DNA from: a virus
Direction: 5' to 3' (one strand)
Virus record (IMG/VR): IMGVR_UViG_3300023172_003867
Location: 1-30,383 of that record
Length of the DNA: 30,383 nucleotides
Shown: positions 3,278-29,027 of the stretch, in pieces
Layout: every line of letters starts with the position of its first letter
Position numbering within the stretch: position 1 is the stretch's first letter
Notes under the pieces: generated by a model
What the model was told of the DNA's origin: nothing
What the model saw: the letters and a program-made list of their open reading frames with translations, nothing else
Databases searched by the model: none
Translations under genes and position numbers: made by a program

Positions 3278-3340
3278 TTTAATACTGGTAATTTAGATAA
3301 TTATTAGTATATTATACTATAATTGGTAATATTGTCAACC
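3278..3340. promoter_or_regulatory. Divergent AT-rich promoter region
   Basis: This 63-bp spacer separates two divergent genes. On the plus strand it holds sigma70-like -10 hexamers TATACT (3313-3318) and TATAAT (3318-3323), about 18-23 bp before the SprT-like ATG. The region is nearly all A/T and also reads as TATAAT/TATAGT-like hexamers on the minus strand. No good -35 box was found. Promoter activity is inferred from divergence and composition. Confidence 0.4.
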
Positions 3341-3808
3341 ATGCAAAGAAGGAAAACACATTCAAAAGTCAGGAGTTTGAAAAAAGAACTTAAACGTAGC
3401 CTCGAAACAAGGGGTCGTGTACAAGGTTACAAGCCAACTCCCATGGCGGTGGCTCATTGGTTTACCAAATTAAACACAATGTTGTTTGGTAATAGGCTCG
3501 GACGTGTACATATAGAAGTCAAAAAACTTCATAAGGACTGGGGCAGATGTATAGCAAGTTGGGATGGCAGACAAGCACCCAAAGGCAAATTTGACCAACG
3601 TAAATTACCACATCATGTGGTCGAAGGATACTACATTCAATTGCACAGCAAATTCCCAACGTGGAAAGACTTTATCGAAACCCTGGCACACGAAATGGTG
3701 CACCTGTATCAGATGACAGTATTGAAAGATCCTTATTCGAACCACAATGAAAATTTTTATTCTTTCAGGCCTACTTTTGAGTCTGCTGGTTTAAAACTGT
3801 ATCGCTAA
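3341..3808 (+). CDS. SprT-like zinc metalloprotein
   Basis: A 155-residue SprT/WSS1-type zincin. The HExxH zinc motif is HEMVH (about 117-121, within TLAHEMVHLYQ), followed by a likely third-ligand histidine in NHNENFY (about 134-140). Family members are metalloproteases or putative ones; in eukaryotes Spartan cleaves DNA-protein crosslinks, while the phage versions are uncharacterised. The N-terminus is very basic (KTHSKVRSLKKELKRS), suggesting nucleic-acid contact. I chose ATG 3341 over a TTG at 3323 because the TTG would add six residues lying inside the AT-rich promoter spacer. The gene is an isolated plus-strand unit, and its last 38 bp overlap the 3' end of the convergent gene at 3771-4529. 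No C-terminal zinc ribbon is seen. Confidence 0.85.
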   Translation: MQRRKTHSKVRSLKKELKRSLETRGRVQGYKPTPMAVAHWFTKLNTMLFGNRLGRVHIEVKKLHKDWGRCIASWDGRQAPKGKFDQRKLPHHVVEGYYIQLHSKFPTWKDFIETLAHEMVHLYQMTVLKDPYSNHNENFYSFRPTFESAGLKLYR

Positions 3809-4529
3809 ACTCTGCATAAGAAATAATCTTAGAATTCTTTAGATCTGTACCTGTCTGCAAGTAATTTAAAAATTCGGGAGGGTTATCATGAACAACAGTG
3901 TAGTTCACGTAAGGCCTCATTTTCAGCATGTCTCTAAATTGTTTCAACCAACCTTCAAATATAGAATCACTGTGCCTTTCACCGTAACAGGTTGTGTCTT
4001 GGTATATGTTGTTCAATTGGTCCTTTCCATACTCTCTGAAGTCATATCCTATCAGGTAGATGTTCTTGTGTCCATGCACACCCGCGGTCCAGAATGCCTG
4101 ATTGCCTGATATCCAGTGTGGATTGTTAGGAATAAGATGTAACATGCCTTTTGTTTGTTTCCGGTTTACTTCTAAAGCAGGTGCGTAGTGGACAGTCTTA
4201 AGTCCTACTTCGTCCTCGACCATCTGCATTGTCATTTTAGTATCAACGGAAAATATGAAATCAGGCATGAAGTCTCGATACAGAGCATTACATCCGTATG
4301 TCTGTCCTGTCGACTTCAACAGATTTAGATCAAATTCCTTTCTCGAAGGACCATTACCTATACAGTAAGCATTGCCCTTTGGGGTGGCCTTGACCTTGTC
4401 CTCGTAGAACGCTGTCTCTATTATCTTTTGTCCTTTTCTCAATATTGTTCTCACAGTGATAGTTTCGCCTGTGTAGGGTTGCCATTCTATAGGTTCTATG
4501 ACATTTCGCTGATTTAGGTTGATTCTCAT
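3771..4529 (-). CDS. MptE/DUF115-like putative glycan enzyme
   Basis: A 252-residue protein whose core (about 50-100) reads GNAYCIGNGPSRKEFDL ... GCNALYRDF ... PDFIFSVD. The pattern of a glycine-rich 'IGNGPS' loop, a 'GCNALY' strand end and a 'PD...VD' strand is shared by the DUF115/MptE-like (6-hydroxymethylpterin pyrophosphokinase-like) proteins and related sugar transferases found in surface-glycan and flagellin-modification clusters. A second Rossmann-like strand is seen at NIYLIGYDF. The start overlaps the upstream gene stop as ATGA, so it is the last gene of the minus-strand glycan operon. Its 3' end overlaps the convergent SprT-like gene by 38 bp. A role in glycan modification is inferred from fold and context; the substrate is unknown. 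Confidence 0.65.
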   Translation of the reverse strand: MRINLNQRNVIEPIEWQPYTGETITVRTILRKGQKIIETAFYEDKVKATPKGNAYCIGNGPSRKEFDLNLLKSTGQTYGCNALYRDFMPDFIFSVDTKMTMQMVEDEVGLKTVHYAPALEVNRKQTKGMLHLIPNNPHWISGNQAFWTAGVHGHKNIYLIGYDFREYGKDQLNNIYQDTTCYGERHSDSIFEGWLKQFRDMLKMRPYVNYTVVHDNPPEFLNYLQTGTDLKNSKIISYAEFSDTVLNQQTQK

Positions 4530-5398
4530 TTGATGTATTTCTCCTCTAGTCTCTTTTTGATCCTACGCCATGGAAGGCCTTCTTCTATTTCTTTTTTGAA
4601 CCATTCCGTGTATGCCAGTTTGTTCGCCCACGTGATCCTGTTTGGCATTGCTGGAGTGTTGATATCTAAAAGTTTGGTGTTACCAACATCGTGGCACAAA
4701 CTCGACTGAGACACGAAAACCGGAATTCCTTTGATCACGGCTTCTATTGCAGGGTTGGAACTGTGATTTACAACCGCCCACGTTCTCTCGAGAGTTTGTT
4801 TAAAATCTGTGTCGTCATAGGTGCGGTAATCTCTTTTTGGTAAACGCACCTTGACGTTCTTGAAATCGTTAGAATTAAATCCTATTTGATTTCTAGGGTG
4901 TGGTCGTACTAGAATTGGTCTAGTTGTGTATTTTCTTATTTCCGTGATTTGCTGGGCAATCCAGGTGTCCATCCTTGGCATATCCTTCCATTGTTCTGAT
5001 GCTTCATGTTGACCGCATATCACAATAATATCTCCTGTAGGATTCCATGGTCTGAGTTCATGTTTAAACAACGGCCAGCGTTTGTCGTCAAAATCTTGAT
5101 TGGCAAAATCGGCATCTCTGTTTATTCCGTTGATGCCTATTTTAAAACTTTCATTACGTCTAAGACCTCCAACCTCGATCACTACAACAGGTTTGTTTTG
5201 ACTGCGGTACTCGTTCCATATCCTATGGTACTGTTCCATCCTGCCTCGCCAAAGCACACTCCATATCACTGCCACGTCAGCGTTGGCACGTTTGTTTAGG
5301 TAAACTTTATCACCGGCATCGTGCAAACTTTTTATGAAAGCCTCAAAAATAGGTTTAGAGTTCAATGGTCCATACTCTGTCCAAATTTCTATTCTCAT
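4526..5398 (-). CDS. KpsC/KpsS-like (Capsule_synth) transferase, copy A
   Basis: A 290-residue protein of the capsule polysaccharide biosynthesis/export family, whose studied members KpsC and KpsS are GT-B beta-Kdo transferases. Two family signatures are visible: RPILVRPHPRNQ at about 155-170 and the nucleotide-sugar-side segment VVNHSSNPAIEAVIKGIPVFVS near the C-terminal third. It ends with the segment LAYTEWFKKEIEEGLPWRRI, which has counterparts in the other three paralogues of this window. Only the core transferase unit is present, without the tandem domains of host KpsC. It is joined to both neighbours by ATGA overlaps (5395-5398 and 4526-4529). Copies A and B (7068-8057) keep the RPHP motif, which copies C and D lack. 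The acceptor glycan and the sugar transferred are unknown. Confidence 0.82.
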   Translation of the reverse strand: MRIEIWTEYGPLNSKPIFEAFIKSLHDAGDKVYLNKRANADVAVIWSVLWRGRMEQYHRIWNEYRSQNKPVVVIEVGGLRRNESFKIGINGINRDADFANQDFDDKRWPLFKHELRPWNPTGDIIVICGQHEASEQWKDMPRMDTWIAQQITEIRKYTTRPILVRPHPRNQIGFNSNDFKNVKVRLPKRDYRTYDDTDFKQTLERTWAVVNHSSNPAIEAVIKGIPVFVSQSSLCHDVGNTKLLDINTPAMPNRITWANKLAYTEWFKKEIEEGLPWRRIKKRLEEKYIK

Positions 5399-6300
5399 TT
5401 CAGTGCCGGTGGTACTTTCTTCCAGTAGTCAACGTTGAATATGTCGACCGGAGCATTTGGATTTCGCCTTAGGTCATTTTTTGCAGATGTGCCTAGATTT
5501 TTACGTTTACCTTTCAAGTGATCCATATACAATCCTAGTTCACTGTTAACGAACACATGGTGTCCTTTAACACCCTTCCAGTATCCTATGTCATTGACTG
5601 TAATTTGTTTTTCTTTTCTGTAGATTTTTGAAAGGTACCAAAAAACATAACTGTCATGCCATTCTAACAATTTGAAAATCTCGTCAGTGATATAAAGTTT
5701 TTCCCAATCATTAATGAAGTTTTGTATTTCGGGGTGTTTCATATTGTATCCCACAAAACCACATTCGGGGTATTTTCCGCCATCGTTGAGATTTGGATTT
5801 TCTCTACCGAGGTAGGTAAGCATGGTATTTTTAGGTAGCAAACTTTCAAAAAAGTTTATTGGCACTGGACGGAATGTAAAAGTGTCTCCGTCTATCCAAA
5901 CTACATAATCATAATCTTTAGAATTACGCACAGCGTTCACGACACAAAAAACTTTGTTTGCAAATCTCACAGCGGCCCAGAGATATGAACCTTTGTTCTT
6001 GTCCTTACCGCCTTTGGCCTGTAGTTCTTCAGGTCTCCTCACCCCGCCTGGTATTTCTTGCAGTTCACCGTTGGCCACGGGATCGTCTTTATGCTTGTTC
6101 TTGAATTTAAAGAGTTCTGGTTCGGCTGTGTTGAGGTCAACCCATTGCAATCTTTCATACTTACAATCAGGCTTTGGTTCTTCGGCGTAGACAACTATAT
6201 CCACTTCTGGTGGAAACTGCTCGGCCATTGACTCGATGCCCTTCTTTCCGTACTGTTCCCAGGTACCTGGTTTGTATGATGTGACAACTTTAATCTTCAT
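5395..6300 (-). CDS. GT-A type glycosyltransferase with DxD motif
   Basis: A 301-residue protein beginning MKIKVVTSYKPG, the first strand of a Rossmann-like GT-A fold. Around residues 130-140 it has DYDYVVWIDGDTF, a classical DxD site (D137-G-D139) for divalent metal and nucleotide-sugar. Downstream, the ECGFVGYNM segment and WHDSYVFWYL (acidic plus aromatic acceptor-side residues) are typical of small phage and bacterial GT-A transferases. No signal peptide or membrane helix is visible, so it should act in the cytoplasm. It overlaps the sulfotransferase gene upstream by 11 bp and the next gene by ATGA. The donor is not predictable from sequence. The glycosyltransferase call is firm, the exact CAZy family is not. 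Confidence 0.82.
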   Translation of the reverse strand: MKIKVVTSYKPGTWEQYGKKGIESMAEQFPPEVDIVVYAEEPKPDCKYERLQWVDLNTAEPELFKFKNKHKDDPVANGELQEIPGGVRRPEELQAKGGKDKNKGSYLWAAVRFANKVFCVVNAVRNSKDYDYVVWIDGDTFTFRPVPINFFESLLPKNTMLTYLGRENPNLNDGGKYPECGFVGYNMKHPEIQNFINDWEKLYITDEIFKLLEWHDSYVFWYLSKIYRKEKQITVNDIGYWKGVKGHHVFVNSELGLYMDHLKGKRKNLGTSAKNDLRRNPNAPVDIFNVDYWKKVPPALK

Positions 6301-7078
6301 TTATTCTCCTATTTAAATCTTTGTATCCCGGCCAGTTTTGTAAGATCTCCTGCTGTTCGTTTGGTAATTCATTTATATAATTTGATCCCCCGCGTCTGTA
6401 AAATTTAAGTTCGTCTGGAACATCTGTTTTATTTTTTTCTTGCATTTTTGTAAACGTTGTCTGGGTTTTAGCATATTCGAATGCTTCTTTATCCCAGGCA
6501 TAGGCATATGAACTGAATATCAAGTCTATCATATTCCGCCATTGCTCGTCATCTTTCTTAAGATCTTCATAACGAACTTTCAGTTTTTTACCTTTGTGCT
6601 GGTCATAATGATCTAGTTGTGCATTCATAAAATTTATAATTATATCAAACCCCCACTGCTTGTCATGTGCAAAATCAATTATGTCCTTGTGCTGTGGAGG
6701 TGTAAAGTTTTTATAAGGCACACTCTTTAGGTAGGGCCAGTAACTGAACAAAACATCCAGTGGATTTCTAAAAAGGTAGATTATATTCTGTTCCTGCATC
6801 TCATCTAAAAAAATAAATTTTCGTTTGTTTTGTATTTGGAAATATTCTTCCCATGGGATATGTCCCGTGGCACTCATCCAGTCGTGTCTGAAAAGTATTC
6901 TTGGAATGCCCGGCCTAGGACGGTCAACCCATTTACTGAACTCAACGTTGTATTTTTTTGCAATATAGTGTCCGAACAGGTGTTTCATCCAAGTCCTCCC
7001 ACAACGGGGAAAACTTAAAATCAAATTAGGAATGTTGACATACTGATTTTTCAGTACTCCTATCCGCCTATGCATCAA
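6290..7078 (-). CDS. PAPS-dependent sulfotransferase-like protein
   Basis: A 262-residue protein with both cofactor signatures of the PAPS-dependent sulfotransferase fold. The 5'-phosphosulfate loop is SFPRCGRTWMKHLF (about 22-35; the family norm is a PKSGTTW-like P-loop). The 3'-phosphate segment is IYLFRNPLDVLFSYW (about 100-114), with the conserved R104 and S112. A candidate catalytic histidine is H65 in RHDWMS. A late RRGG segment (in FYRRGGSNYINEL) matches the region that closes over PAPS in cytosolic sulfotransferases. The enzyme would transfer sulfate from host-made PAPS to a hydroxyl, here most likely of a sugar given the glycosyltransferase genes on both sides (11-bp overlaps at each end). 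Length is normal for a compact bacterial member. The substrate is inferred from context only. Confidence 0.82.
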   Translation of the reverse strand: MMHRRIGVLKNQYVNIPNLILSFPRCGRTWMKHLFGHYIAKKYNVEFSKWVDRPRPGIPRILFRHDWMSATGHIPWEEYFQIQNKRKFIFLDEMQEQNIIYLFRNPLDVLFSYWPYLKSVPYKNFTPPQHKDIIDFAHDKQWGFDIIINFMNAQLDHYDQHKGKKLKVRYEDLKKDDEQWRNMIDLIFSSYAYAWDKEAFEYAKTQTTFTKMQEKNKTDVPDELKFYRRGGSNYINELPNEQQEILQNWPGYKDLNRRINED

Positions 7079-8057
7079 ACCCTAACCTTTCTTTGAATCT
7101 TTTGAATACCAGTCCAGAACGTATCTCATCAGTTGTCCACTGCATGTATCCAATGTTGTTCAACCACTGTTGCCTGTCGGGATACAATGGTGTTTCAATG
7201 TTGTTAAGATCCTTATTTGCCACGGGATAACAAATGGCGAGGTCACTAGTTACAAAAGTCGGTATACCTCTCACACAAGAATCTATGCTGGCGGTCGAGT
7301 TGTGAGTGACAACAGCGTGACAGTTGGCGATTGCCTCCTGGAAGTTGAATCTGTAATATTTTTTTTCGTCTCCTTTGAAGTGTGCTTGTCCTTCTATGAG
7401 TGTGCAGTCTTCTGGGAATTCATTTTTACGATTAATCATTTGTGCCATGTGATTTGGGTGTGGACGTATTAAAAATTTTCTTTCTGTGATTGGTCTCAGT
7501 TTGTCGTAAACACCCATGAACCAATCTATCGGGTCAAGTTCGTCCATGCTCCAGTTGTCCTTTGGCTGTAGGACAAACAGTATAGGGTCATCTTGGTTTG
7601 ACTTACGCCATGGTTCGTTTTTGACATTCCACAACTTTTTCATCATCTTCCACCTATCGCTTGGTGAGTTGTCATTCAAAAAGTCGCCGTTGTTCATGGG
7701 CGAATATAAACTGACACGCCAGTGATGTTGGGGGTGTGTGACAGTGTTGCCAAAACTAGAAAGTATGCCACCGTCAAATGTGATTATGTAAATGCCCTTT
7801 TTCTTAGCACGTTCCACTAGGTCCCTCCTACGCCCCTTGGTATGGTGTGGTTGGTTCTTACCACCGTAGCCAAACATACAACCTATCGGTGCTGTGGGTT
7901 CCATCTCGTTATCGTCCCATGGCCCTTCCTTGTGCTCATTAACTATTATGGGATTGTCGCCGCAGGCCCTAATGCCGTCAGCCATGTGCTGTAGAAGTTG
8001 CCAACTGGCACCTCGCTTACGGTCCTTTACTGTCCTTCTAAATATTTCAACGTCCAT
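7068..8057 (-). CDS. KpsC/KpsS-like (Capsule_synth) transferase, copy B
   Basis: The longest of the four paralogues, at 329 residues. It carries the RKFLIRPHPNHM signature and the VVTHNSTASIDSCVRGIPTFV segment, which together mark the capsule-synthesis (Kdo-transferase-like) GT-B family. The tail IGYMQWTTDEIRSGLVFKRF aligns with the tails of copies A, C and D. The N-terminal 100 residues have a GYGGKNQPHHTKGRRR segment not seen in the others, probably an acceptor-side insertion. It overlaps copy C upstream by 11 bp and the sulfotransferase gene downstream by 11 bp, so the chain C, B, sulfotransferase, GT-A appears to be one coupled operon. Copy B is most like copy A. Donor and acceptor are unknown. 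Confidence 0.82.
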   Translation of the reverse strand: MDVEIFRRTVKDRKRGASWQLLQHMADGIRACGDNPIIVNEHKEGPWDDNEMEPTAPIGCMFGYGGKNQPHHTKGRRRDLVERAKKKGIYIITFDGGILSSFGNTVTHPQHHWRVSLYSPMNNGDFLNDNSPSDRWKMMKKLWNVKNEPWRKSNQDDPILFVLQPKDNWSMDELDPIDWFMGVYDKLRPITERKFLIRPHPNHMAQMINRKNEFPEDCTLIEGQAHFKGDEKKYYRFNFQEAIANCHAVVTHNSTASIDSCVRGIPTFVTSDLAICYPVANKDLNNIETPLYPDRQQWLNNIGYMQWTTDEIRSGLVFKRFKERLGFDA

Positions 8058-8862
8058 TTAGTATCTCCCAGGCGTATCCATTTTGCATTTCTTTTGCTGT
8101 AAATTGTCCATATGCGAGACTATGAAACAAAGGTCTAGGATCCTCATACACCGGTTGCTCGATTCGTGCTAGACTTTTTCCTGCAATGGGAAAAGCACAA
8201 TTATTGCTGTCGGTGAACACCGGCACACCGTTTGCCAGTGCCTTTATTGTGATTGAACTGTTGTTAGTAACCACTGCGTGGATCTCGTCCCACGCGATTG
8301 GTTGTTTTGGTACTTTGGTGCTGTTTTCTCCTGTGTGTATTATGCCATCAGAGCCTAATTGTGCTTCAGGATTGTAAGGTTTTTCCCTCACTAAAATTTC
8401 TCTGTCTGTGTTTTGCTTTAATTCACTTATTGTTTTGTCCAACCAGTTTTCGCATTTGAAGAAAGTGCTTATGCTGTTTGTTGGAGGACACACTAATATC
8501 TTGCTTCCATTCTTATGGTATGGTTTCACTTCGAAAGGAAAAGTCGCCTTGAACCTATCATCTGGACGCTCTTCTATGAAATTTTTTACGTGGTCGTTCT
8601 TTACTATCCTAAGGAAGTATGGTGCCTGTCTACTAAGACCCCAATACGGTCTATCCATGAAGAAGAAATCAATTTTATTTTTTTGACAGTGTTCGTACAC
8701 AAGATTTGTGCCCCTCAAAATACCAAACAGCGATATGCTGTCGGCGTCGGTTGCCTGAATGCACTCGTTGTGAGGAAGTATTTTTGAATTAGGTATTCCT
8801 TGTTTGAAAAATTCAATGTACTTTTCGGTAACGTGTCTGTTTGTTTTTGAAAGGTAATTCAT
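8047..8862 (-). CDS. KpsC/KpsS-like (Capsule_synth) transferase, copy C
   Basis: A 271-residue member of the same family, recognised by VVTNNSSITIKALANGVPVF and the tail LAYGQFTAKEMQNGYAWEI. At the position of the RPHP signature it reads REILVREKPYNP, so the conserved histidine is replaced. Copy D on the other strand has a similar change (RLRHKP), and C and D also share the N-terminal pattern 'FGILRGTN' / 'WGFVGNN' followed by a 'D.PYWG'/'DTPYFG' element. C and D are therefore sister paralogues, possibly with a different donor or reduced activity. No strong Shine-Dalgarno sequence precedes the ATG. An 18-bp spacer separates it from the GT61 gene upstream. Confidence 0.78.
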   Translation of the reverse strand: MNYLSKTNRHVTEKYIEFFKQGIPNSKILPHNECIQATDADSISLFGILRGTNLVYEHCQKNKIDFFFMDRPYWGLSRQAPYFLRIVKNDHVKNFIEERPDDRFKATFPFEVKPYHKNGSKILVCPPTNSISTFFKCENWLDKTISELKQNTDREILVREKPYNPEAQLGSDGIIHTGENSTKVPKQPIAWDEIHAVVTNNSSITIKALANGVPVFTDSNNCAFPIAGKSLARIEQPVYEDPRPLFHSLAYGQFTAKEMQNGYAWEILNGR

Positions 8863-8880
8863 ATTACATTTTAATAATTT

Positions 8881-9966
8881 TTAGTCCAAATGTCTAATCA
8901 AATCTTTGACATCTACTTCGAAATCTATCAAATCGTTGAGTCGTTTCACTCCTTTTGGCCTGTTTCCGCTGTATTGTATTGGAATAGTTTTTGCAAGGTA
9001 AAGTTCGTGATCTAGGGCCAAACAGTTTGCCAACACCGGGTAAACTTTTTTGTGTATCATTTTTGGATCTTGTATCTCTATTATTTTTGTTCCTTGTTCA
9101 CACCATAAGATGTTCGTAAGTCCTGCGCCATGTGGCGCAACGATATGACTTGCTTCGGAAAAACATTTTACTTGTTCTTTTATAGACATGTCTTCGAGAG
9201 TCACTGTTTGCCATCCTTTTAGAGCCATCATAAGTTTTTCAGCATTCAGTAATCTTCTGGTAGTTGCTTTGTTCCGTGACACGTAGATCTTCTTTCCTTT
9301 GCTTTTGCCCACCCCTATTACATTTTTTAACACGTGTAACCATGGAGCCAAAGACGGTGCTATCACTCCATCCTGATGATTACTAAGACTGGGTACGATA
9401 AGGTGTTGGAACTGCCAGGTCTCTTTCTCGGGTAGCACCATGTATTTTAGATCCGGAAAGAATGCCTCTGCCACTTTATCAAAATATTTGCTTGGGTTAG
9501 ATAACACGAAACAATACTTTGTGAACAATGTACTCCAACGTTTTTCGACTAACCTGAACTTTGATATTATATCTATCCATACGTGCCATGGATTGTTAGC
9601 ACTCTCTTTATCGATAGGCAACCATACGTAGGTGTACCTTTCATTGAAATGCCTTGTGACTTTGGGTAAACGTATCTCGATTTTCTCACCCCAGGTGTCC
9701 CATAAGCCATGTGTCTTATTGGGTTTATTTTTGTACCTGTGTGTGAGGTTCCAGACGTGATTAGTGATAAGATGATTCTCGTTGGTCACAATCAACGGAC
9801 AGGAGTTGACCTGGCAGTCAAAAAATTCTGCCATGAATGTTGGTAAAGATTTATATGACGAAGGGGCATCGGGATGATACGGTACATGATAATCGAAGCC
9901 TGAATCGATCGTTGGAAACCTGTTCAGAAAATATTTGATATCGGTGATGTTTTTGACTGTTGGCAT
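8881..9966 (-). CDS. GT61-family (DUF563) glycosyltransferase
   Basis: A 361-residue protein with the GT61 hallmarks: KKIYVSRNKATTRRLLN (about 225-241, the basic YVSR motif) and IVAPHGAGLTNILWC (about 275-289, the HGAGLTN motif). GT61 enzymes add pentoses or hexosamines to polysaccharides or glycoproteins; bacterial members occur in capsule and LPS loci. The N-terminal 120 residues are less conserved and contain an aromatic-rich stretch (YVWLPIDKESANNPWHVW) that may bind acceptor. It is the first gene of the minus-strand glycan operon, divergent from the SGNH gene across a 28-bp spacer. The start at 9966 is the only sensible one; a Shine-Dalgarno sequence is not evident. Family call firm, sugar unknown. 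Confidence 0.85.
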   Translation of the reverse strand: MPTVKNITDIKYFLNRFPTIDSGFDYHVPYHPDAPSSYKSLPTFMAEFFDCQVNSCPLIVTNENHLITNHVWNLTHRYKNKPNKTHGLWDTWGEKIEIRLPKVTRHFNERYTYVWLPIDKESANNPWHVWIDIISKFRLVEKRWSTLFTKYCFVLSNPSKYFDKVAEAFFPDLKYMVLPEKETWQFQHLIVPSLSNHQDGVIAPSLAPWLHVLKNVIGVGKSKGKKIYVSRNKATTRRLLNAEKLMMALKGWQTVTLEDMSIKEQVKCFSEASHIVAPHGAGLTNILWCEQGTKIIEIQDPKMIHKKVYPVLANCLALDHELYLAKTIPIQYSGNRPKGVKRLNDLIDFEVDVKDLIRHLD

Positions 9967-9994: not shown

Positions 9995-10672
9995 ATGACC
10001 ATATCCAAATTGTTTATAAACGGTTGTTCATTTCTCACACCCAGACCAAAGGACAATGTAATCACACACACAGGCATTGAACTTGCTCGTCTATTAGATT
10101 TGGAAATAGCGGAAAATGTCGCACAAGGTGGCAGGGGAAATGACAGGATAAGTTTCACAACTAAACTTTGGTTCACACAGAAAAGGCCTGTGGATACAAT
10201 GGCCGTTATAGGTTGGTCCAGCAGTGACAGGTACGATTATGTGACCGATGACGGATGGAAGAAGGGCAGAATACCATCTTTTGATTCTACCTGGAGGACC
10301 TGGAAGGTCGGCGAACAACTGCGTTTTGTTTCCAAGCAACCAGGCTGGAGCATTGAACAGCAGTCGGAGATGAGATTCGTAGACCACGTGATTGATCTAC
10401 AGAATTTTTTTAAACTGAACGGAATACCATACGTGATGTATAATAGCCTAAGCAATGATTTGTCTTCGGACAACAAAGATATCGAGCTGATGAAAACTCA
10501 GATAGATAGATCCAGATTTTTCCGCTTGGACGATTGTCATTTCAATTATATTATGGATAATAAAATGATTGTTGCACCAAACGATCCACATCCGTCAACG
10601 GAAGGACATGAAAACTGGGCAAAAAAACTAAAGGAATTCATAGATGCTAACAATTTATGCACCACAAAATAA
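9995..10672 (+). CDS. SGNH-fold hydrolase or O-acyltransferase-like esterase
   Basis: A 225-residue protein with SGNH/GDSL blocks: FINGCSFL (nucleophile S12), QGGRGNDRI (about 45-52, the glycine/asparagine oxyanion region), and NDPHPSTEGHENWA (about 196-209) giving the catalytic D197/H199 or H205. Such enzymes remove or transfer O-acyl groups on sugars. It begins the plus-strand sub-block of the glycan island, so acetyl editing of a polysaccharide is a fair inference. There is no signal peptide, so it should be cytoplasmic. The ATG has no Shine-Dalgarno sequence and lies just after TATAAT. Its last 29 bp overlap copy D of the KpsC-like family. Hydrolase versus transferase cannot be decided from the motifs. 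Confidence 0.8.
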   Translation: MTISKLFINGCSFLTPRPKDNVITHTGIELARLLDLEIAENVAQGGRGNDRISFTTKLWFTQKRPVDTMAVIGWSSSDRYDYVTDDGWKKGRIPSFDSTWRTWKVGEQLRFVSKQPGWSIEQQSEMRFVDHVIDLQNFFKLNGIPYVMYNSLSNDLSSDNKDIELMKTQIDRSRFFRLDDCHFNYIMDNKMIVAPNDPHPSTEGHENWAKKLKEFIDANNLCTTK

Positions 10673-11456
10673 TCTAAACAGCAAGGCATGGGAAGTCTTC
10701 GATGGAGTCAAAAAGTCCTGGCCAGAGCAAGTGTCAGTATTGAATAATCGGCAAGAAAATGATCCCAAACCAAATTCGATGTTTTGGGGTTTTGTGGGTA
10801 ACAATTTGGAAATGGTCAAGAAGTTAGAAGCAAGAATGCACAATTATTGGTTCACTGACACACCTTACTTTGGCAGATTTGATAACAGTAATTTAAAATC
10901 AGACAACCACTATTGGCGAATTTGTAAGAACAGAATTCACGCACATTATATCAAAGATTGCAAAGCAGATAGGTTTGAAAAATTTGGAATGCGAATTAAA
11001 GCACCTAACTTTGCAGGCAAACACGTTTTGGTGTGTCCTAGCAGTTCAGGTATACATGGATATCTGGATACACCCAACTGGACGAACGAAACAATCAAAC
11101 AGATTAAAAGGTACACGGACAGACCAATCAGACTTCGACACAAGCCTAGGGGCAGGGGTACATCAGGGCCAAGTGAGGCAAAGGTACCCCTATCCGAGGA
11201 CCTTAAGGAAGCCTGGTGTGTAGTGACCAGTTGCAGTATAGCGGCGGTAGAAGCAATATGTGAAGGTATACCTGTGTTCTGCCATAATCTAAGTTTTGCA
11301 GTAGATGTTGGAAATATCGAATTGTCAGATATAGAAAATCCTTATTATGGTGGACCGGAACCTTGGTTATACAGTCTTGCCTACCAACAGTTTACTCCAG
11401 AGGAAATCAACGACGGCAAGGCTGTTGAAATTTTAATGGACAAAGGATTGTTATGA
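10644..11456 (+). CDS. KpsC/KpsS-like (Capsule_synth) transferase, copy D
   Basis: A 270-residue protein that starts inside the end of the SGNH gene; an AAAGGA-like ribosome-binding site lies 10-15 nt before ATG 10644. Family signatures are CVVTSCSIAAVEAICEGIPVFC and the tail LAYQQFTPEEINDGKAVEIL. The RPHP position reads RPIRLRHKPRGR, so the histidine is shifted or replaced as in copy C, its nearest relative in this window. It is followed by FkbM copy 1 through an ATGA overlap. Lying on the opposite strand from the other three copies, it probably reflects duplication and inversion within the island, or separate acquisition. The sugar transferred is unknown. Confidence 0.78.
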   Translation: MLTIYAPQNNLNSKAWEVFDGVKKSWPEQVSVLNNRQENDPKPNSMFWGFVGNNLEMVKKLEARMHNYWFTDTPYFGRFDNSNLKSDNHYWRICKNRIHAHYIKDCKADRFEKFGMRIKAPNFAGKHVLVCPSSSGIHGYLDTPNWTNETIKQIKRYTDRPIRLRHKPRGRGTSGPSEAKVPLSEDLKEAWCVVTSCSIAAVEAICEGIPVFCHNLSFAVDVGNIELSDIENPYYGGPEPWLYSLAYQQFTPEEINDGKAVEILMDKGLL

Positions 11457-12094
11457 AAATAGAAAAACTTAAAAACAATCTATGGGTTCCTTCCAATGAC
11501 GCTCAGATAGAACAATGGAGAGAGAAAGGATATCCACATATGCAAGAACGTTGTCTCAATGACTTTGTAAAATGGTGCGAGTCGCAAAACAAAAAATTTA
11601 ATTGTATCATAGATGTAGGAGCATGGTGCGGAACCTGGAGTATGGTAATGCAAAAGTTCGCCAGGCAGGTTAAATGCTATGAGCCAAACAAAACACATTT
11701 TGAATGTCTGACTAGGAATTTGGCACCATACAACCATACAAGTTTGTACAATCAAGCAATAGGAAGCCAGAACGGATTCATAAAATTATCTGACGAAACA
11801 GCAACACAGAACACAAGGGTACTTGAAGAACCAGGAAACACTCCAATAACTACCTTAGACAGCCTCGAGATAAAAGGTGTAGAAATGATAAAATTAGATG
11901 TTGAAGGATTTGAAATGGAAGTATTAAAGGGTGCGGAAAAAACACTTCAAGATGTCAAATTTGTAATGATAGAACTGAACAACAACAGTAAAAAATACGG
12001 AAGTAGTAATCTAAAGATAGAGAAATTTTTAGTTAAACTTGGGTTCAAAACACTGATAAAGGTGTGGCCCGATGTGGTATGGTATAGGAGTTAG
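11453..12094 (+). CDS. FkbM-family SAM methyltransferase, copy 1
   Basis: A 213-residue class I methyltransferase. Motif I is CIIDVGAWCGTWS, the post-motif acidic strand end is KCYEPNK, and the FkbM hallmark MIKLDVEGFEMEVLKGAEK is intact near residues 143-161. FkbM enzymes usually O-methylate sugars or polyketide hydroxyls. It starts in an ATGA overlap with the KpsC-like copy D and has AAAGGA six bases upstream of the ATG. A methyl cap on a glycan is a reasonable role given the neighbours. No membrane segment is seen. The family is clear, the substrate is not. Confidence 0.85.
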   Translation: MKIEKLKNNLWVPSNDAQIEQWREKGYPHMQERCLNDFVKWCESQNKKFNCIIDVGAWCGTWSMVMQKFARQVKCYEPNKTHFECLTRNLAPYNHTSLYNQAIGSQNGFIKLSDETATQNTRVLEEPGNTPITTLDSLEIKGVEMIKLDVEGFEMEVLKGAEKTLQDVKFVMIELNNNSKKYGSSNLKIEKFLVKLGFKTLIKVWPDVVWYRS

Positions 12095-12095
12095 T

Positions 12096-12713
12096 ATGGA
12101 AGAAATGTATGTGTGGCTCAAAGAGAACTTGGCCGACAAAGGATACAAGCCAGAAAAAATTTTAGATATCGGTGCTTGGAATGGTTTTTGGACAATCAAT
12201 GCAAAAACTTTTTGGCCGGACAGTAATTACACCTGTATTGAAGCAGGCCAAAAACATGAAGACAACTTGAAGAAAGTCGCAGATCAATATCATATTGCAG
12301 TGCTAGGCGATGAAAACAAGGAAGTAGACATGTATATAAATCCTGTGGGTTACACCAAAGGTGCAACACTTTTGCCGGCCTCCACAAACAAGAAAAAGAG
12401 ACCCGACCGAAGGACGATGCAGACACTGGACACGCTAGTAGGTAAGGACGCCAAATTTGATTTCATAAAACAAGATATTCAAGGTGCTGAAATATTATGC
12501 ATGAAAGGATGTCCTGAAATATTCCAACGGGCAGATTACGTGTTGAATGAAGTAAATCTTTTTTCCTACGCTCACTCTCCGAACACGCCTTGTAGGAAAT
12601 CAATGGACGAGTATATGCGATCTATAGGCTTTCCCTATGCAATATCAATCAACACACACTTTGGTGACCCTAAGCAGGTAGATAGGTTGTACAGCAAAAA
12701 AGAATTTAATTAA
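12096..12713 (+). CDS. FkbM-like SAM methyltransferase, copy 2
   Basis: A class I methyltransferase of 205 residues from ATG 12096. I prefer this start to an in-frame ATG at 12072 because AGGAG (12086-12090) sits five bases before it and it clears the upstream stop. Motif I is KILDIGAWNGFWT; the acidic SAM-ribose strand ends CIEAGQ; the FkbM-like motif is FIKQDIQGAEILCMKGC, in which the usual DVEG is DIQG. That change (glutamate to glutamine) may alter the active site, or it may be tolerated as in other divergent members. It is the last gene of the plus-strand block and overlaps the convergent FkbM copy 3 gene by 4 bp (TTAA). Confidence 0.8.
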   Translation: MEEMYVWLKENLADKGYKPEKILDIGAWNGFWTINAKTFWPDSNYTCIEAGQKHEDNLKKVADQYHIAVLGDENKEVDMYINPVGYTKGATLLPASTNKKKRPDRRTMQTLDTLVGKDAKFDFIKQDIQGAEILCMKGCPEIFQRADYVLNEVNLFSYAHSPNTPCRKSMDEYMRSIGFPYAISINTHFGDPKQVDRLYSKKEFN

Positions 12714-13264
12714 CGCACGAAGATATAATCATTAGGACGACCTTTTGTGTCCCACGTTCCCACATGTTTGTAACCGAGTCCCTTCAACAAGTCAGATGCT
12801 GAGAAGTCACCCCTGTTCTGTTCTATCACTATGGTCGGATTGCAACGCTCTATTGTGTCCAGTGATCCTTGCAATATCTTGGTCTCGTAACCCTCAACGT
12901 CACACTTGATGAAGTCCACGTTGGCGAATTTGAACTTGTCAACGGTGGTTATGTTCACCTTTAATCCACTGTCTAGTTCCTTGATTCTGCCTACGCCTCT
13001 TTTGGTGTAACGCACATCATCCTTCTCGCCCAGCCCTGTGTTGTGGTAAGTGAACTTGTTCACGTCTTTTACTTCTTTAGCCAAGAATGACTGCCTGTCC
13101 CTGAAGTCAAAACAATGCACGTGTTGGAAGTCGGGCTCGAGCCATTTGGCGAAGCCAAACGTGTCACAGCCTATGTCCAGGGCGTTCCTGAATTCTTTTA
13201 TGTGGGGTTTGCACCACTCATAGAAGTTATTCCATACTACTAGTTTTTTTTGATACGTTGACAT
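12710..13264 (-). CDS. FkbM-family SAM methyltransferase, copy 3
   Basis: A 184-residue methyltransferase, smaller than copies 1 and 2. Motif I reads NALDIGCDTFGFAKWL, a divergent version of the usual DIGAxxG loop. The strand VHCFDFRD follows, and the FkbM hallmark FIKCDVEGYETKILQGSLD is clear. It ends VIEQNRGD ... FVR, the usual C-terminal strands. It overlaps the upstream 145-residue protein gene by 25 bp and converges with FkbM copy 2 with a 4-bp overlap. The three FkbM copies differ widely, so they probably methylate different positions rather than being recent duplicates. The substrate is inferred to be a glycan from context. Confidence 0.8.
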   Translation of the reverse strand: MSTYQKKLVVWNNFYEWCKPHIKEFRNALDIGCDTFGFAKWLEPDFQHVHCFDFRDRQSFLAKEVKDVNKFTYHNTGLGEKDDVRYTKRGVGRIKELDSGLKVNITTVDKFKFANVDFIKCDVEGYETKILQGSLDTIERCNPTIVIEQNRGDFSASDLLKGLGYKHVGTWDTKGRPNDYIFVR

Positions 13265-14352: not shown

Positions 14353-15546
14353 TCAAATATTTAAGTCTTTGGCCAGTTCAGGTATAAAATTAGATAGTTC
14401 TATCTTCCTATAGGCATCTCTTTTAGATATGACTTGCTTGAATCTTTCTATCTGCCTGTACACATCTGAGTCTAGATTTTGTTTGATGTTTTTAATCAAA
14501 GCATCAAAGTTAGTTGTGTGCATCAGTTTGTCTTGTTGCAGTCCTAACAATCTCTCGAGAGACTTCTCCTTGGATTTTTTTGGTAAAACTCTTAAGTGTA
14601 GGTAATCTGGCCCTTCGAGAATATTGAAATTACAATGTATCTTGACAGCGTTTGCATAATCGATCATGTCTTTTATATACATCAAATTGAAATTTTGTAC
14701 TGTATGATTAATCATGAACGTGGCATTCTTTAATTTTCTTAACATCTGCACGTTGTATTTGATTGTTTCAAAATTACTAGGAAATCTCAGGTAATCGTTC
14801 ACTTTGTCTATGCCATCGATGCTGAAAATAATTTTCAAATTTCTAAATCTTTCTAGAAGTTTATGTAGGTCATCGTTATATATTGTGCCATTCGTTGTTA
14901 TCCATACAGCGAGATTATGTAGGTCCTTCTTCCAACTTAATTTTTCCAATAGTTGTATTATCTTTGGATTCATCAAGGGTTCACCACCCTGTAAAGTTAT
15001 GTGTGTCACATTGTGTTTTTCAATTTGTTCTATGAGGTAGTCCAGTCTCGAGTCATCGTAATCATAGTTCTTCTGATCTAGTTTCTCAAACCCCAGGTCG
15101 TTGTTCTCAACTAGCAACTTACTGCTTAAAGTTCCACTGCACATATAACATTTTAGATTACAAAGATTTGTGATGTCGAGGTTGTAGTCTTCGGGGTGTT
15201 CCAAGTTTTCTTTGCCAAGCAGTTTCAAATATTCCTCTGCTTTTTTATTACCAATCACTTTGTATTGGAAGTTTGAGTTTTGACGCAAACTTCTTGATCC
15301 TATTGCCTCCTTCTCCCAACATATCCTACACTCCTTGGGAGTTTTGTTTTCTTTGAAGGCATTTATAAGATACTGCCTGTAATCACTATTCCAATAATCC
15401 ACTATATCGTTTTGTTTTAGATTGAATCTGTGTTGTCCTTTGAATTCTGTTTCGTTTGGTCTGGCGTCACAACATACTTTGATTGATCCGTCTGTGGTAA
15501 TGTTGATGCTGTTGTAGGGTCTGATGCAGAATTTATTTTTTTCCAT
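14353..15546 (-). CDS. Twitch-domain radical SAM protein
   Basis: A 397-residue radical SAM enzyme. The catalytic 4Fe-4S motif is CNLKCYMC (C129, C133, C136; CX3CX2C). SAM-binding GGEP follows in TLQGGEPLMNPK. N-terminal to the barrel is an auxiliary cysteine set: C7, C25-C26, and C73/C76 in KECRICW, the arrangement of proteins annotated as twitch-domain radical SAM, where these ligate a second Fe-S cluster. Relatives occur in marine phages and in surface-glycan loci, with unknown reactions; SPASM/twitch enzymes include peptide-maturation and sugar-modifying enzymes. It lies one base before the GT8-like gene and overlaps the HAD gene by 14 bp. All cluster-ligating cysteines seem intact, so it is probably active. 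Confidence 0.85.
   Translation of the reverse strand: MEKNKFCIRPYNSINITTDGSIKVCCDARPNETEFKGQHRFNLKQNDIVDYWNSDYRQYLINAFKENKTPKECRICWEKEAIGSRSLRQNSNFQYKVIGNKKAEEYLKLLGKENLEHPEDYNLDITNLCNLKCYMCSGTLSSKLLVENNDLGFEKLDQKNYDYDDSRLDYLIEQIEKHNVTHITLQGGEPLMNPKIIQLLEKLSWKKDLHNLAVWITTNGTIYNDDLHKLLERFRNLKIIFSIDGIDKVNDYLRFPSNFETIKYNVQMLRKLKNATFMINHTVQNFNLMYIKDMIDYANAVKIHCNFNILEGPDYLHLRVLPKKSKEKSLERLLGLQQDKLMHTTNFDALIKNIKQNLDSDVYRQIERFKQVISKRDAYRKIELSNFIPELAKDLNI
14358..14364 (-). promoter_or_regulatory. TTAAATA element 6 nt before the GT8-like start
   Basis: Read on the minus strand, TTAAATA is followed by TTTGAT and then the ATG at 14351. It matches the core of the T4-type late promoter (TATAAATA) and occurs at the same spacing before five other genes in the window. 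Here it lies in the last codons of the radical SAM gene, so chance is possible. Confidence 0.3.
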
Positions 15547-19188: not shown

Positions 19189-20517
19189 TCAATGATTATT
19201 TTTTTGTAGAAAACTTTCCATATGGCACAATGCAAGGCCATTGTCAATAATCCTGTTATACCTATCCATTAGCCATTGGCAAGCCATTATTTCCCTGATC
19301 ATTTTAAGATTTCCTCTGAACCGATTTAGCAGATCTGACAGCAGTCGTTGTAGAATTTTTTGGTTTTCTGTATTGGTTGAGTAAATTTTGGTAGAACTGT
19401 TCAATGTGTGAGTAAGATCTGCAAGTCCATCATCAACGTGCTGACTAATATAACTCTTCCAAATTTTTGCACTTAAACAATTATCAATCAAATCTAAATC
19501 TAATTTAGACCAATCTATAGTTTCCCATAGATCTAACCAATTTTCGTTTGCCAGGTTTAGAAATTTATCATCGTTATTTTCGTATTGTCTTGAGTAAGAT
19601 CTCCAAGAACCGTGGTCAGTACATCTGACACTGTCGGAGTTCCAAGTTGGCACAACATACAAGTTGTCTCCCCATAACGGCGACCAATCTGAATATGCAT
19701 TATATACAGTTTCAAATATACTAGGATATCCTACTTTAGAGAAAGTCTGCGAAGTAATAAATGATTTCCATTTTGTATCTAAACTGTTGAAAGCGGGCAA
19801 AATCCATTTACCGGTGTGTAACATGGTTGCATTGGAACCGTTACCATGTAATATCCAATCGCAATCTTGTTTCAACTCGCCTATTGTTCTTTCGTCATAC
19901 CCATCCAAATTCATGACAGCAGGTTTAGGAACACTTGCAAGACTACTACCTGTTATGTAGTCATTCACCAACAGGTGTCCATCTAGCTCTTTGATGTTTG
20001 CAGACACGTGCTTCCTTTTCCATATACTAATAGTATCATTGATAAGTTTTGTGTTTTTTATATTATACCGAGGGCCATCTGTGAATCCTACCACGTTGAA
20101 ATCAAGTTTATTCTTGTACAGCCATGACGCCATCATGTTGCTGTCTATTCCGCCCGAGCACAACACCGTGTACTTGCCTTTGTACTGTTCGGCTAAACTT
20201 GTCATGTGTGCATCGAACATTTTTTCAACACTGTTGTAGTATTCTCTTACACAATAATCGCGTTGGACAATTTTTTTGGTTTTAATTCTTTCATTGATCA
20301 TTTCAAGATCGTCGGTAACTTTTATACCTTCATAGAAATCTAAATGCTGATCCACTAGGGTCGCACTGGTTAAATGATCTAAGATTCCTGGAGTAAAATT
20401 CGTGTCATTTTTCCAATCAGTCTTAGCAAAGCAACCGCCAACTTCACTGTGTGGAATTTCTACACCTTTGAATTTGTGTTTGACAGGGTACCAATCTCGG
20501 TCGTAAGGCAACTTCAT
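19189..20517 (-). CDS. Asparagine-synthetase-like PP-loop protein without glutaminase domain
   Basis: A 442-residue protein with the PP-loop ATP-pyrophosphatase motif YTVLCSGGIDSNMMASWL (SGGIDS at about 121-126), followed by a FNVVGFTDGPRYN strand and IKELDG, as in the synthetase half of asparagine synthetase B and beta-lactam synthetases. Residue 2 is lysine and no N-terminal cysteine nucleophile or Ntn glutaminase domain is present, so it cannot use glutamine by itself. The C-terminal half (HGNGSNATMLHTGKW, WSPLWGDNLY) is divergent and tryptophan-rich. PP-loop enzymes adenylate a carboxylate or similar group; a substrate is not evident. It sits alone between gene 32 and the virion block. 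The ATG follows TTAAATA by five bases and lacks a Shine-Dalgarno sequence. Confidence 0.8.
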   Translation of the reverse strand: MKLPYDRDWYPVKHKFKGVEIPHSEVGGCFAKTDWKNDTNFTPGILDHLTSATLVDQHLDFYEGIKVTDDLEMINERIKTKKIVQRDYCVREYYNSVEKMFDAHMTSLAEQYKGKYTVLCSGGIDSNMMASWLYKNKLDFNVVGFTDGPRYNIKNTKLINDTISIWKRKHVSANIKELDGHLLVNDYITGSSLASVPKPAVMNLDGYDERTIGELKQDCDWILHGNGSNATMLHTGKWILPAFNSLDTKWKSFITSQTFSKVGYPSIFETVYNAYSDWSPLWGDNLYVVPTWNSDSVRCTDHGSWRSYSRQYENNDDKFLNLANENWLDLWETIDWSKLDLDLIDNCLSAKIWKSYISQHVDDGLADLTHTLNSSTKIYSTNTENQKILQRLLSDLLNRFRGNLKMIREIMACQWLMDRYNRIIDNGLALCHMESFLQKNNH

Positions 20518-26438: not shown

Positions 26439-27167
26439 CTATTCTATGTTGACTATACCTCCCTTTTTGATCTTATCAAGCGTCTTTTCACTAGGCACAC
26501 CTGTTATACGCAACGAATAACGCCTATATCTTGAAGCGTTTGCGGTTGCGTGAGGTATGCTCGGATCATAGGATATGCTGTCGCCTGCTTTCCACTGTTG
26601 AACGTTCCTGTTGCCCCAAAGTATGAATTGTCCGGGTTCCCAATCCTGTAAATGTATTATGATACGTTGTAATTTTTTTATTCCATATCCGCTTGGATGT
26701 CCGTCCATTGTGTCCACGTGATAAGGTTCAAAATTGCCCACATTTTTCTCCATTATTATTGGTTGCACTTCGTCTTCCCACTCGAACCAATCTACTATCT
26801 TTGTGAGCGTGGGGTGTTTTTCCGGTTTGACCACTTCCTTGAATCCAACGTGATCCATGCCTCTCACTTCCATTTCGTGTAACCACCATGCCGCGTGTAG
26901 CACAGCGATATCGTTTGGATGTATATTTCTTGACTTTTCTCTAACGAACGGAAATATTTCTTTAGTGATATCAGTCTTCCATCTGAATGATAATCCTGTC
27001 TGAATGTGATCATTGTCGGAGTCATCACGCCATTTGTCAAAGTGGTATGGACTTTTGCTATCTAGGTAATGATTCCAACTCGGATAGTCGAAACATTCGT
27101 GTTCTACTGCCAAATGATGTCCTTTGGGTAATTTTGGTATCTCGTGAACGAATTTTTTTCCTGACAT
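26439..27167 (-). CDS. 2-oxoglutarate/Fe(II)-oxygenase-like hydroxylase (DSBH fold)
   Basis: 242 residues. The second half has the double-stranded beta-helix metal and cosubstrate pattern: H150-V-D152 in EPYHVDTMDG, strands KLQRIIIHLQDW and GQFILWG, distal H206 in IPHATANAS, and R220 in RRYSLRITG, the expected 2-oxoglutarate-binding arginine. The N-terminal half is rich in W, H and D and may form the substrate face. Such proteins hydroxylate amino-acid side chains or small molecules. The gene ends 37 bp before the 207-residue virion gene, and its ATG directly follows the gp16 stop (TAG-ATG), so it is part of the packaging operon. The target could be a virion or host protein. Family call good; reaction inferred. 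Confidence 0.75.
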   Translation of the reverse strand: MSGKKFVHEIPKLPKGHHLAVEHECFDYPSWNHYLDSKSPYHFDKWRDDSDNDHIQTGLSFRWKTDITKEIFPFVREKSRNIHPNDIAVLHAAWWLHEMEVRGMDHVGFKEVVKPEKHPTLTKIVDWFEWEDEVQPIIMEKNVGNFEPYHVDTMDGHPSGYGIKKLQRIIIHLQDWEPGQFILWGNRNVQQWKAGDSISYDPSIPHATANASRYRRYSLRITGVPSEKTLDKIKKGGIVNIE

Positions 27168-27704: not shown

Positions 27705-28141
27705 TTACGTTTGCCGTTGTGGAACAACTGTTCTTCTGAAACTACCCTGAAGTGTATCCTTCTTTGCTTTGCATAGGCAGACGCCGCTTCCCATTTGGCG
27801 GTGTTTATTACAACTTGTTTCTTCTTTGCTAGACTTCTACCTGCTTTTTCCATTGTGGTTTGTGCCATTGGTTTGACCTCTATCATCTCTGCGTGTTTCT
27901 TGCCGTTCTTATCAACATATACTATGAAGAAATCTGGCACGTACACAGTATACTTGCCTGTGAAAGGATGTCGATAGGGAATCTTAATTGATTCGCTGGC
28001 CCATTGGTACACGTTCGGATGTTCGTCACAAAGTCGCATAAAGGCGTGTTCCCAACTACTCCTATAGGTGGGAGTTTTTGTGCCAACATATTTTTCACTG
28101 TTCTTTGGGGAAAATTTACCTTTGGCAAATCTTGGTATCAT
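27701..28141 (-). CDS. 4: gp4-like head completion nuclease
   Basis: 146 residues, close to T4 gp4 (about 150). The order of motifs follows gp4: KFSPKNSEKYVG, PTYRSSWEHAFM (E31), YVPDFFIVYVD (D70) and AEMIEVKP (E88-x-K90), a PD-(D/E)xK nuclease layout also seen in TnsA-like N-domains. The tail VVINTAKWEAASAYAKQRRIHFRVVSEEQLF is typical. In T4, gp4 is needed to complete heads after packaging. It has a good ribosome-binding site (GGGAGGAA, about 28149-28156) and an ATGA overlap with the hydroxylase-like gene upstream. Confidence 0.9.
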   Translation of the reverse strand: MIPRFAKGKFSPKNSEKYVGTKTPTYRSSWEHAFMRLCDEHPNVYQWASESIKIPYRHPFTGKYTVYVPDFFIVYVDKNGKKHAEMIEVKPMAQTTMEKAGRSLAKKKQVVINTAKWEAASAYAKQRRIHFRVVSEEQLFHNGKRK

Positions 28142-28602
28142 TGTGTTATTCCTCCCACGATATGTACTCTATCTTCGTTTTGTCTAGAACCATTCAATGC
28201 TGTGTGCATTTTGGTGGTGTCAACTACATAATAATTACCATCTGCAGGTAAGTGTCTAAGTTGTCTGTCTTCGACAATAAAACTGCTTTTGTTTGTAATG
28301 ACCGGTATGTGTATCCTTTGTGTGAAATCACAATGGTATGTGTAGCACTCTCTGGGTTTTAGGATCATGATTCTTGTCCTAAACATTTTCAGTTCTGACA
28401 TTATTGAATTGATATATGGTATGTCGAATATAGGAACAACGAAATCTGTTTCATTGTATTTAGATTTAAGTTTGTTCATGGATCCCACACTCAGGAATGG
28501 ATCAAGATTGTCTTTTGTGCCTTGTAGGCCCAGTTGTTTTATACCATCCATGCTAGGTAAGGTCTGCAATTCTTTTTTTATTTTTTCTAAATCTAAGGGC
28601 AT
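28138..28602 (-). CDS. Aspartyl/asparaginyl beta-hydroxylase-like protein
   Basis: 154 residues from ATG 28602 (MPLDLEKIKKEL...). A longer in-frame start at 28644 would overlap the SDR gene by 52 bp, so the shorter one, with a 10-bp overlap, is preferred. The Asp_Arg_Hydrox-type pattern is visible: H90-C-D92 in YTYHCDFTQRIHIPV, GNYYVVDTTKMHTALN with H133, and R145 in DRVHIVG. The spacing of H, D, H and R fits a compact Fe(II)/2-oxoglutarate enzyme. Known members hydroxylate aspartyl/asparaginyl residues; others act on lipids or free amino acids. It lies between a mini-SDR and gene 4. Substrate unknown. Confidence 0.78.
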   Translation of the reverse strand: MPLDLEKIKKELQTLPSMDGIKQLGLQGTKDNLDPFLSVGSMNKLKSKYNETDFVVPIFDIPYINSIMSELKMFRTRIMILKPRECYTYHCDFTQRIHIPVITNKSSFIVEDRQLRHLPADGNYYVVDTTKMHTALNGSRQNEDRVHIVGGITQ

Positions 28603-29027
28603 GTTGTAATATCTTTTATGCGGTGTTTCTGGTTCAGCACCCAATCCACTACCGAAACACAGTAGTCGATGCTCATTTTGTCTGCCTTAACTGACGCGAC
28701 TCTCGGAGAATCAAAATAACCAAACCTTATTATAGATGTATCTGCTCCTTGATAGAATAGTTGTTCATTTGCTTTGTCTAGGGCAGACTTTTCCACTTGG
28801 TATGGATGTGGTTTGTGTTTGTTTTGGTCTGGACTGTTTGATCCAATGTTGATTATTTTTTTTTTCATCTCCGCCGCCTTATATAGTAAATGCACTTGAT
28901 CAAATCCGTTGTGTTTGCAGTTGATAAAAATGTCGCAATCTTCTAATTTTTCTACTGACCCGTATTTTTTGTGAAGTGCTTGTCCCAGGCCACGCCTTAT
29001 GCCTGTGATATAAAATTTTTTTTTCAT
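28593..29027 (-). CDS. Miniature short-chain dehydrogenase/reductase
   Basis: 144 residues, against about 250 for ordinary SDRs. The cofactor loop is ITGIRRGLGQAL (TGxxxGxG, 8-15), the NNAG-like strand end is FINCKHNG, and catalytic residues are S63/S65 (NIGSNSPD), Y76 and K80 (PYQVEKSALD, the YxxxK motif), followed by IIRFGYFDSP, the usual post-catalytic 'RPGxxxT' region. The core Rossmann fold thus seems present with loops and helices shortened, not truncated. It would use NAD(P)(H) to reduce a carbonyl or oxidise an alcohol. It sits three bases after a virion-type gene and overlaps the hydroxylase-like gene by 10 bp. The pairing suggests a short oxidative pathway, by inference. Confidence 0.78.
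   Translation of the reverse strand: MKKKFYITGIRRGLGQALHKKYGSVEKLEDCDIFINCKHNGFDQVHLLYKAAEMKKKIINIGSNSPDQNKHKPHPYQVEKSALDKANEQLFYQGADTSIIRFGYFDSPRVASVKADKMSIDYCVSVVDWVLNQKHRIKDITTCP

Follow-up and report, generated by a model that had tools for sequence, protein, structure and literature searches.

A gene on the minus strand of the window, by which we mean the whole viral record of 30,383 bases, encodes a protein with a supported PAPS-type sulfotransferase fold, and it occupies an exchangeable slot within a conserved cassette of sugar-assembly genes. The fold, the PAPS-site residues, the purifying selection on the gene, its linkage to the cassette and the exchange of genes at its slot were all computed. 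The reading that we favour, with moderate confidence, is that the product would be a cytosolic sulfotransferase that acts on carbohydrate, depends on PAPS and decorates the cassette glycan as an exchangeable tailoring enzyme, with a sulfated host-surface glycan as the likely product.

The sulfotransferase gene, its fold and its predicted PAPS site

The reading frame described from the sequence alone is real and is open on the minus strand over 6290–7078, with its stop at 6290. Translation almost certainly begins with the ATG at 7075 and not with the TTG at 7078, because the ATG is retained in nearly all relatives and the preceding codon is not, which would give a product of 261 aa and an overlap of 8 bp with the upstream neighbour (7068–8057). 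The sequence-only reading had given an overlap of 11 bp on each side, a figure that holds for the downstream neighbour (5395–6300) but not for the upstream one. The Pfam profile Sulfotransfer_1 (PF00685) matches residues 18–248 with E=2.7e-11 and a score of 43.8 bits (cut-off 22), the Sulfotransfer_3 profile (PF13469) stays below its cut-off (17.7 bits vs 27), and no family in PHROGs or NCBIfam matches the protein. In addition, a profile built from 11 relatives recognizes cytosolic sulfotransferases of known structure among the PDB chains (E=6.8e-6).

An AlphaFold2 model built from 9 near-identical sequences had a pLDDT of 44, which rose to 76.8 (pTM 0.76) once divergent relatives were added to give 19 sequences. 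When this model was compared with the PDB by Foldseek, the structural check that had been proposed earlier, 19 matches with E<=0.001 were obtained and 19/19 are PAPS sulfotransferases, with TM values of up to 0.61. Pfam, the PDB profile match and the structure comparison agree with the PAPS-type identity originally assigned to the protein; PAPS binding and sulfate transfer are predicted from the sequence and the model. It is extremely improbable that a P-loop kinase or another nucleotide-binding protein was mistaken for a sulfotransferase, a reading rejected on the fold-search results: the two groups share a fold core and G-alpha proteins do appear low down in the search, but only with TM 0.20–0.25 and E>0.003, whereas the matches at E<=0.001 are sulfotransferases only and no kinase is among the best, the protein has no Walker A motif (GxxxxGK[ST]) anywhere, and its RxxxDxxxS and C-terminal RxG are invariant.

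The relatives aligned (19 sequences of 57–100% identity) allow the putative PAPS site to be described by residue. The 5'-phosphosulfate loop is SFPRCGRTW (residues 21–29), in which Arg24 stands where Lys is usual, and the definition of the loop in PMC11625862 allows K/R; the 3'-phosphate motif is RNPLDVLFS (residues 103–111), of the defined type RxxxDxxxS (PMC11625862). Both motifs match letter for letter those quoted in the sequence-only reading, and the loop as well as R103, D107 and S111 are invariant in the alignment. A further motif absent from that reading, the C-terminal FYRRG (residues 225–229), follows F-x-R-[RK]-G in 19/19 sequences, and we take it to be the R-K-G type motif, with the same role as in SULTs. 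The catalytic base in SULTs is a histidine; His64 (FRHD) is invariant and His72 variable, which makes His64 the candidate base. The cytosolic Sulfotransfer_1 enzymes SULT2A1 (4ifb), plant SOT18 (5mek) and StaL/Teg12 have the fold, the PAPS loop, RxxxDxxxS, the C-terminal RxG and, as a candidate, the catalytic His in common with the phage protein, which differs from them in being shorter, only ~15–18% identical in the fold matches, provided with Arg24 in place of the usual Lys and surrounded by sugar-enzyme genes.

A search for homologues in other viruses, also suggested by the sequence-only reading, identified 30 related loci in IMG/VR that encode relatives of 54–100% identity. Among the aligned sequences synonymous change is saturated (pS 0.64–0.92) and nonsynonymous change is low (pN 0.09–0.27), and the gene is under strong purifying selection. 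The Pfam match, the 30 related viral loci, the invariant columns and the pS and pN values place the motifs beyond chance. The gene could instead be a degenerate or neutral passenger of a plastic region that lacks a selected sulfotransferase role, since not all related phages have it and the content of the slot can be exchanged, but purifying selection, the retention of frame and overlaps, and PAPS residues that are invariant in all 19 aligned sequences make this very improbable.

The surrounding glycan cassette and its exchangeable slot

The genes around the sulfotransferase gene are listed in Table 1. The glycosyltransferase family 61 gene is firmly the best-supported glycosyltransferase of the cassette as judged from its profile match, and the sole firm one, while both immediate neighbours of the sulfotransferase gene are likely glycosyltransferases. 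The upstream one shows 72–100% identity among relatives and a sub-threshold similarity to DUF6716 in 11/16 aligned members; the downstream one has no match in Pfam, NCBIfam or the PDB and is recognized by its invariant DxD alone, and its homologue in the cultured phage Mosig is 30% identical. The CstII-like protein at the cassette end resembles a phrog sialyltransferase (E=0.0025) and, over 29 residues, an alpha-2,3/2,8-sialyltransferase in the PDB (E=2.2e-4), and is strongly conserved.

Table 1. Features of the window and of related contigs (positions refer to the window unless a contig label, L, precedes them)
Feature	Position	Strand	Basis or remark
SprT-like metalloprotease gene	3323–3808		convergent with the glycan cassette, less conserved than its neighbours
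CstII-like sialyltransferase-related protein	3771–4529	minus	cassette end; short nucleotide-binding region matched
Paralogous RPHP-type probable GT-B protein	4526–5398	minus	cassette comparison
Downstream slot flank, probable GT-A-like protein	5395–6300	minus	invariant DxD (D137, D139)
Sulfotransfer_1 sulfotransferase gene	6290–7075	minus	ORF, Pfam, alignment, structure comparison; 261 aa
Upstream slot flank, RPHP/THNSTAS-type, probable GT-B glycosyltransferase	7068–8057	minus	DUF6716-like, below cut-off
Paralogous probable GT-B protein	8047–8862	minus	cassette comparison
Glycosyltransferase family 61 gene	8881–9966	minus	Pfam E=7.5e-23
DUF6071 gene	9995–10672	plus	SGNH-like by eye; first of a plus-strand island amid minus-strand genes
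Three consecutive FkbM-type methyltransferases	11453–12094, 12072–12713, 12710–13264	two plus, one minus
Radical SAM protein	14353–15546		scores above cut-off for NCBIfam NF033640 (twitch domain-containing); flanked by GT-A-like and HAD genes in a plastic region
442-aa protein	19189–20517		weak PP-loop ATPase (QueC) similarity, no confident family; adjoins the gp32 gene
Second, cupin-like oxygenase candidate	26439–27167
Asp/Arg beta-hydroxylase-type (2OG oxygenase) gene	28138–28644		near the head-closure gene
AsnB-type glutamine-dependent amidotransferase	L019:6275–8008, L021:6287–8011, L143:8983–10749		575–588 aa, N-terminal MCG
Ferredoxin (4Fe-4S with DUF3470)	L129:9797–10132		~111 aa; slot of several relatives, between the sulfotransferase or flank and AsnB
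259-aa protein with APS-kinase/AAA_33-like P-loop kinase domain	L141:785–1564, L122:444–1223		apparent HxGH nucleotidyltransferase (by eye); beside a GT-A-like gene

When the upstream flank was used as the query, 147 contigs were obtained; 80 of them were read, and the 74 with both flanks were counted for the slot. The order GT61, GT-B, GT-B, slot, GT-A-like, GT-B and sialyltransferase-like is retained in nearly all of the 80 contigs, and all sulfotransferase-bearing loci of sufficient extent keep it, save that AsnB is inserted in some relatives, where it directly adjoins the sulfotransferase. The cassette sits between the recombination genes UvsW and UvsY. Several glycosyltransferases (GT61 firm, GT-B and GT-A probable) occur together with sugar-tailoring enzymes (FkbM, and epimerase/dehydratase in relatives), the combination by which a phage cluster for surface-glycan (LPS/capsule) modification is recognized. 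The FkbM sub-block itself varies, and relatives carry an epimerase/dehydratase and a GT2-like gene instead. The coupling to glycosyltransferases that had been proposed is borne out as linkage to the cassette by gene order in the 74 contigs, but the glycosyltransferase label of the two immediate neighbours is only likely.

The content of the slot differs between the contigs, all of which are fragments, and the counts refer to contigs and not to independent viruses, because some are near-copies. The commonest occupant is an AsnB-type amidotransferase alone (37/74), followed by the PF00685 sulfotransferase alone (19/74). Both are present in 7/74, with AsnB and then the sulfotransferase in 4, and the sulfotransferase and AsnB with or without ferredoxin in 3; ferredoxin with or without AsnB occupies 6/74 (ferredoxin and AsnB in 5, ferredoxin in 1). 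An unrelated Sulfotransfer_2-like gene together with AsnB is found in 2/74, and the slot is empty in 3/74. In three contigs (L072, L127 and L129) the sulfotransferase is masked by long open frames and was counted as present, and the slot gene of two others (L139 and L141) resembles PF03567 below the cut-off (E=0.022 in hmmscan). On the tree of the upstream flank the presence of the sulfotransferase falls in two separate clades and requires two changes, so that it must have been acquired or transferred on at least two occasions, unless it was lost.

The AsnB-type enzyme WbpS makes uronamides in the O-antigen and A-LPS surface glycans (PMC7468200). The slot AsnB scores below the cut-off of the WbpS-like family eps_aminotran_1 (TIGR03108; 186–204 bits vs 817) and above that of the general asparagine synthase asn_synth_AEB (TIGR01536), so this parallel is suggestive only, and the idea of a sugar decoration slot rests on context. 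A 577-aa insert in the slot was considered as a PAPS synthase and rejected as AsnB-like.

Supply of PAPS and sulfotransferases in other phages

No APS kinase was detected on the sulfotransferase-bearing contigs searched or in Mosig, and, as may be expected of fragments, the phage contigs showed no clear gene for PAPS synthesis; the sulfotransferase would therefore depend on PAPS from the host. An APS-kinase-like domain does reach its cut-off in 8 relatives. We do not read it as a PAPS supply, because AAA_33 matches better, a nucleotidyltransferase-like stretch follows, and 0/8 of these contigs carry the PF00685 sulfotransferase (one has a Sulfotransfer_2-like gene). The 259-aa protein in question could make a nucleotide sugar or could bear on PAPS supply. 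At its position the window has the radical SAM gene.

The window also contains UvsX-, UvsY-, gp32- and UvsW-type genes, a terminase and a head-closure gene. The nearest relative of TerL is that of the Pseudomonas phage PA5oct (286-kb; 55%) and those of UvsX are in the jumbo phages Atu_ph07, Phosso and GAP32, which points to a jumbo-type member of the T4 superfamily and not to a classical T4-like phage. The earlier label T4-like is thus right at the level of the superfamily but not beyond it, and the marine setting is an attribution of the same reading.

A tblastn search of 50,697 phage and 72,556 plasmid records returned no close relative of the sulfotransferase, and of two scans of GTDB genomes, both limited by patterns, one yielded no bacterial relative that tblastn confirmed and the other one pattern match, at the end of a contig. 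Each flank has two relatives only among the 50,697 annotated phage records, and one of them is the cultured pelagimyophage Mosig EXVC030M. The Mosig genome (MT647606) encodes a PF03567 sulfotransferase (QOI69147.1, E=4.3e-12) directly after a GT-B-like gene, in the same cluster as the GT-A-like homologue. Both T4-type marine phages thus have a sulfotransferase in the company of FkbM methyltransferases and of GT-A-like and GT-B-like genes that are homologous between them, but that of Mosig belongs to PF03567 and not to PF00685, and there is no credible alignment between the two sulfotransferases. PF03567 genes recur elsewhere, with scores above the cut-off in 12/50 related contigs. That sulfotransferases from different families adjoin the same flank genes would be difficult to account for if sulfate transfer were not part of what the cassette makes.

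Sulfotransfer_3 genes have been annotated in OM43-phage genomes and in Synechococcus phage S-SRM01, where they are listed as auxiliary genes and their function is stated to be unclear (PMC10580990); they belong to PF13469, a family that the protein studied here reaches only below the cut-off. Synechococcus phage S-SCSM1 and Xanthomonas phage FoX4, as well as the OM43 phages and S-SRM01, likewise encode sulfotransferase-family proteins of unproven function. No characterised phage sulfotransferase was found in the open-access literature searched, although annotated cases exist. The LPS/capsule clusters of large cyanophages (P-SSM2 type) similarly combine several glycosyltransferase families with tailoring enzymes and vary among related phages; the review that describes them does not mention sulfotransferases (PMC7824862), and a slot that alternates between sulfotransferase and amidotransferase is a feature of the present lineage. 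The annotation of sulfotransferases in phages is already known; what is new is that the slot is exchangeable and that unrelated sulfotransferases have been recruited repeatedly.

Acceptor and destination of the sulfate

Sulfated polysaccharides are widespread in the sea, and sulfate alters the charge and the recognition of surface glycans. The occupants of the slot and the PF03567 gene of Mosig make glycan tailoring the best explanation for the gene. Under the mechanism that we propose, the enzyme would bind host-derived PAPS at its conserved site and pass the sulfate to a sugar that the cassette enzymes assemble or alter, and elsewhere in the lineage the amidotransferase would replace or accompany it. 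A surface glycan sulfated in this way may then keep rival phages from adsorbing to the infected cell, as in superinfection exclusion, or prevent the loss of progeny on debris. The change in surface charge and receptor use put forward in the sequence-only reading may be a further effect.

The same enzymes and the same cassette could also serve to sulfate a glycan of the phage virion instead of the host surface, on capsid, tail or fibre proteins that carry sugars. The sequence is silent on the destination of the glycan, and a phage with a large genome could supply the glycosylation of its virions itself. However, the cassette, which lies between UvsW and UvsY and not among structural genes, has no export or virion-linked gene specifically associated with it, and the precedent in large phages has been interpreted as a change of host LPS or capsule, proposed to preempt rival phages (PMC7824862). 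We consider a virion glycan unlikely. Slightly less likely still is an acceptor other than a glycan, that is, a small molecule, a peptide or a modified nucleotide (a metabolite, a signal or hypermodified DNA), with an incidental linkage to the sugar genes. The nearest solved structures are those of small-molecule sulfotransferases, the SULT/SOT enzymes and the glycopeptide enzymes StaL/Teg; other genes present encode a radical SAM protein, AsnB-type enzymes, 2OG-type oxygenases and FkbM methyltransferases; and sulfation of nucleotides has been proposed for viral sulfotransferases (PMC10829341). Against such an acceptor stand the conserved place of the gene within the glycan cassette and the fact that sulfotransferases from unrelated families were recruited next to the same flank genes.

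To conclude, a real and conserved sulfotransferase lies in an exchangeable slot amid sugar-assembly genes, and the large marine phages of this family thus probably sulfate a surface sugar in the course of infection. More tentatively, and with rather less than even confidence, jumbo marine phages may possess a modular decoration slot in which unrelated sulfation and amidation enzymes are swapped, which would rewrite the charge of host-surface polysaccharides in a receptor arms race with competing phages. Since the slot, between the same flanks, can contain the sulfotransferase or the amidotransferase, the two together, or neither of them, it offers natural comparisons that make the role of a phage sulfotransferase directly testable, and Mosig, isolated on SAR11, is a cultured phage with an analogous locus.
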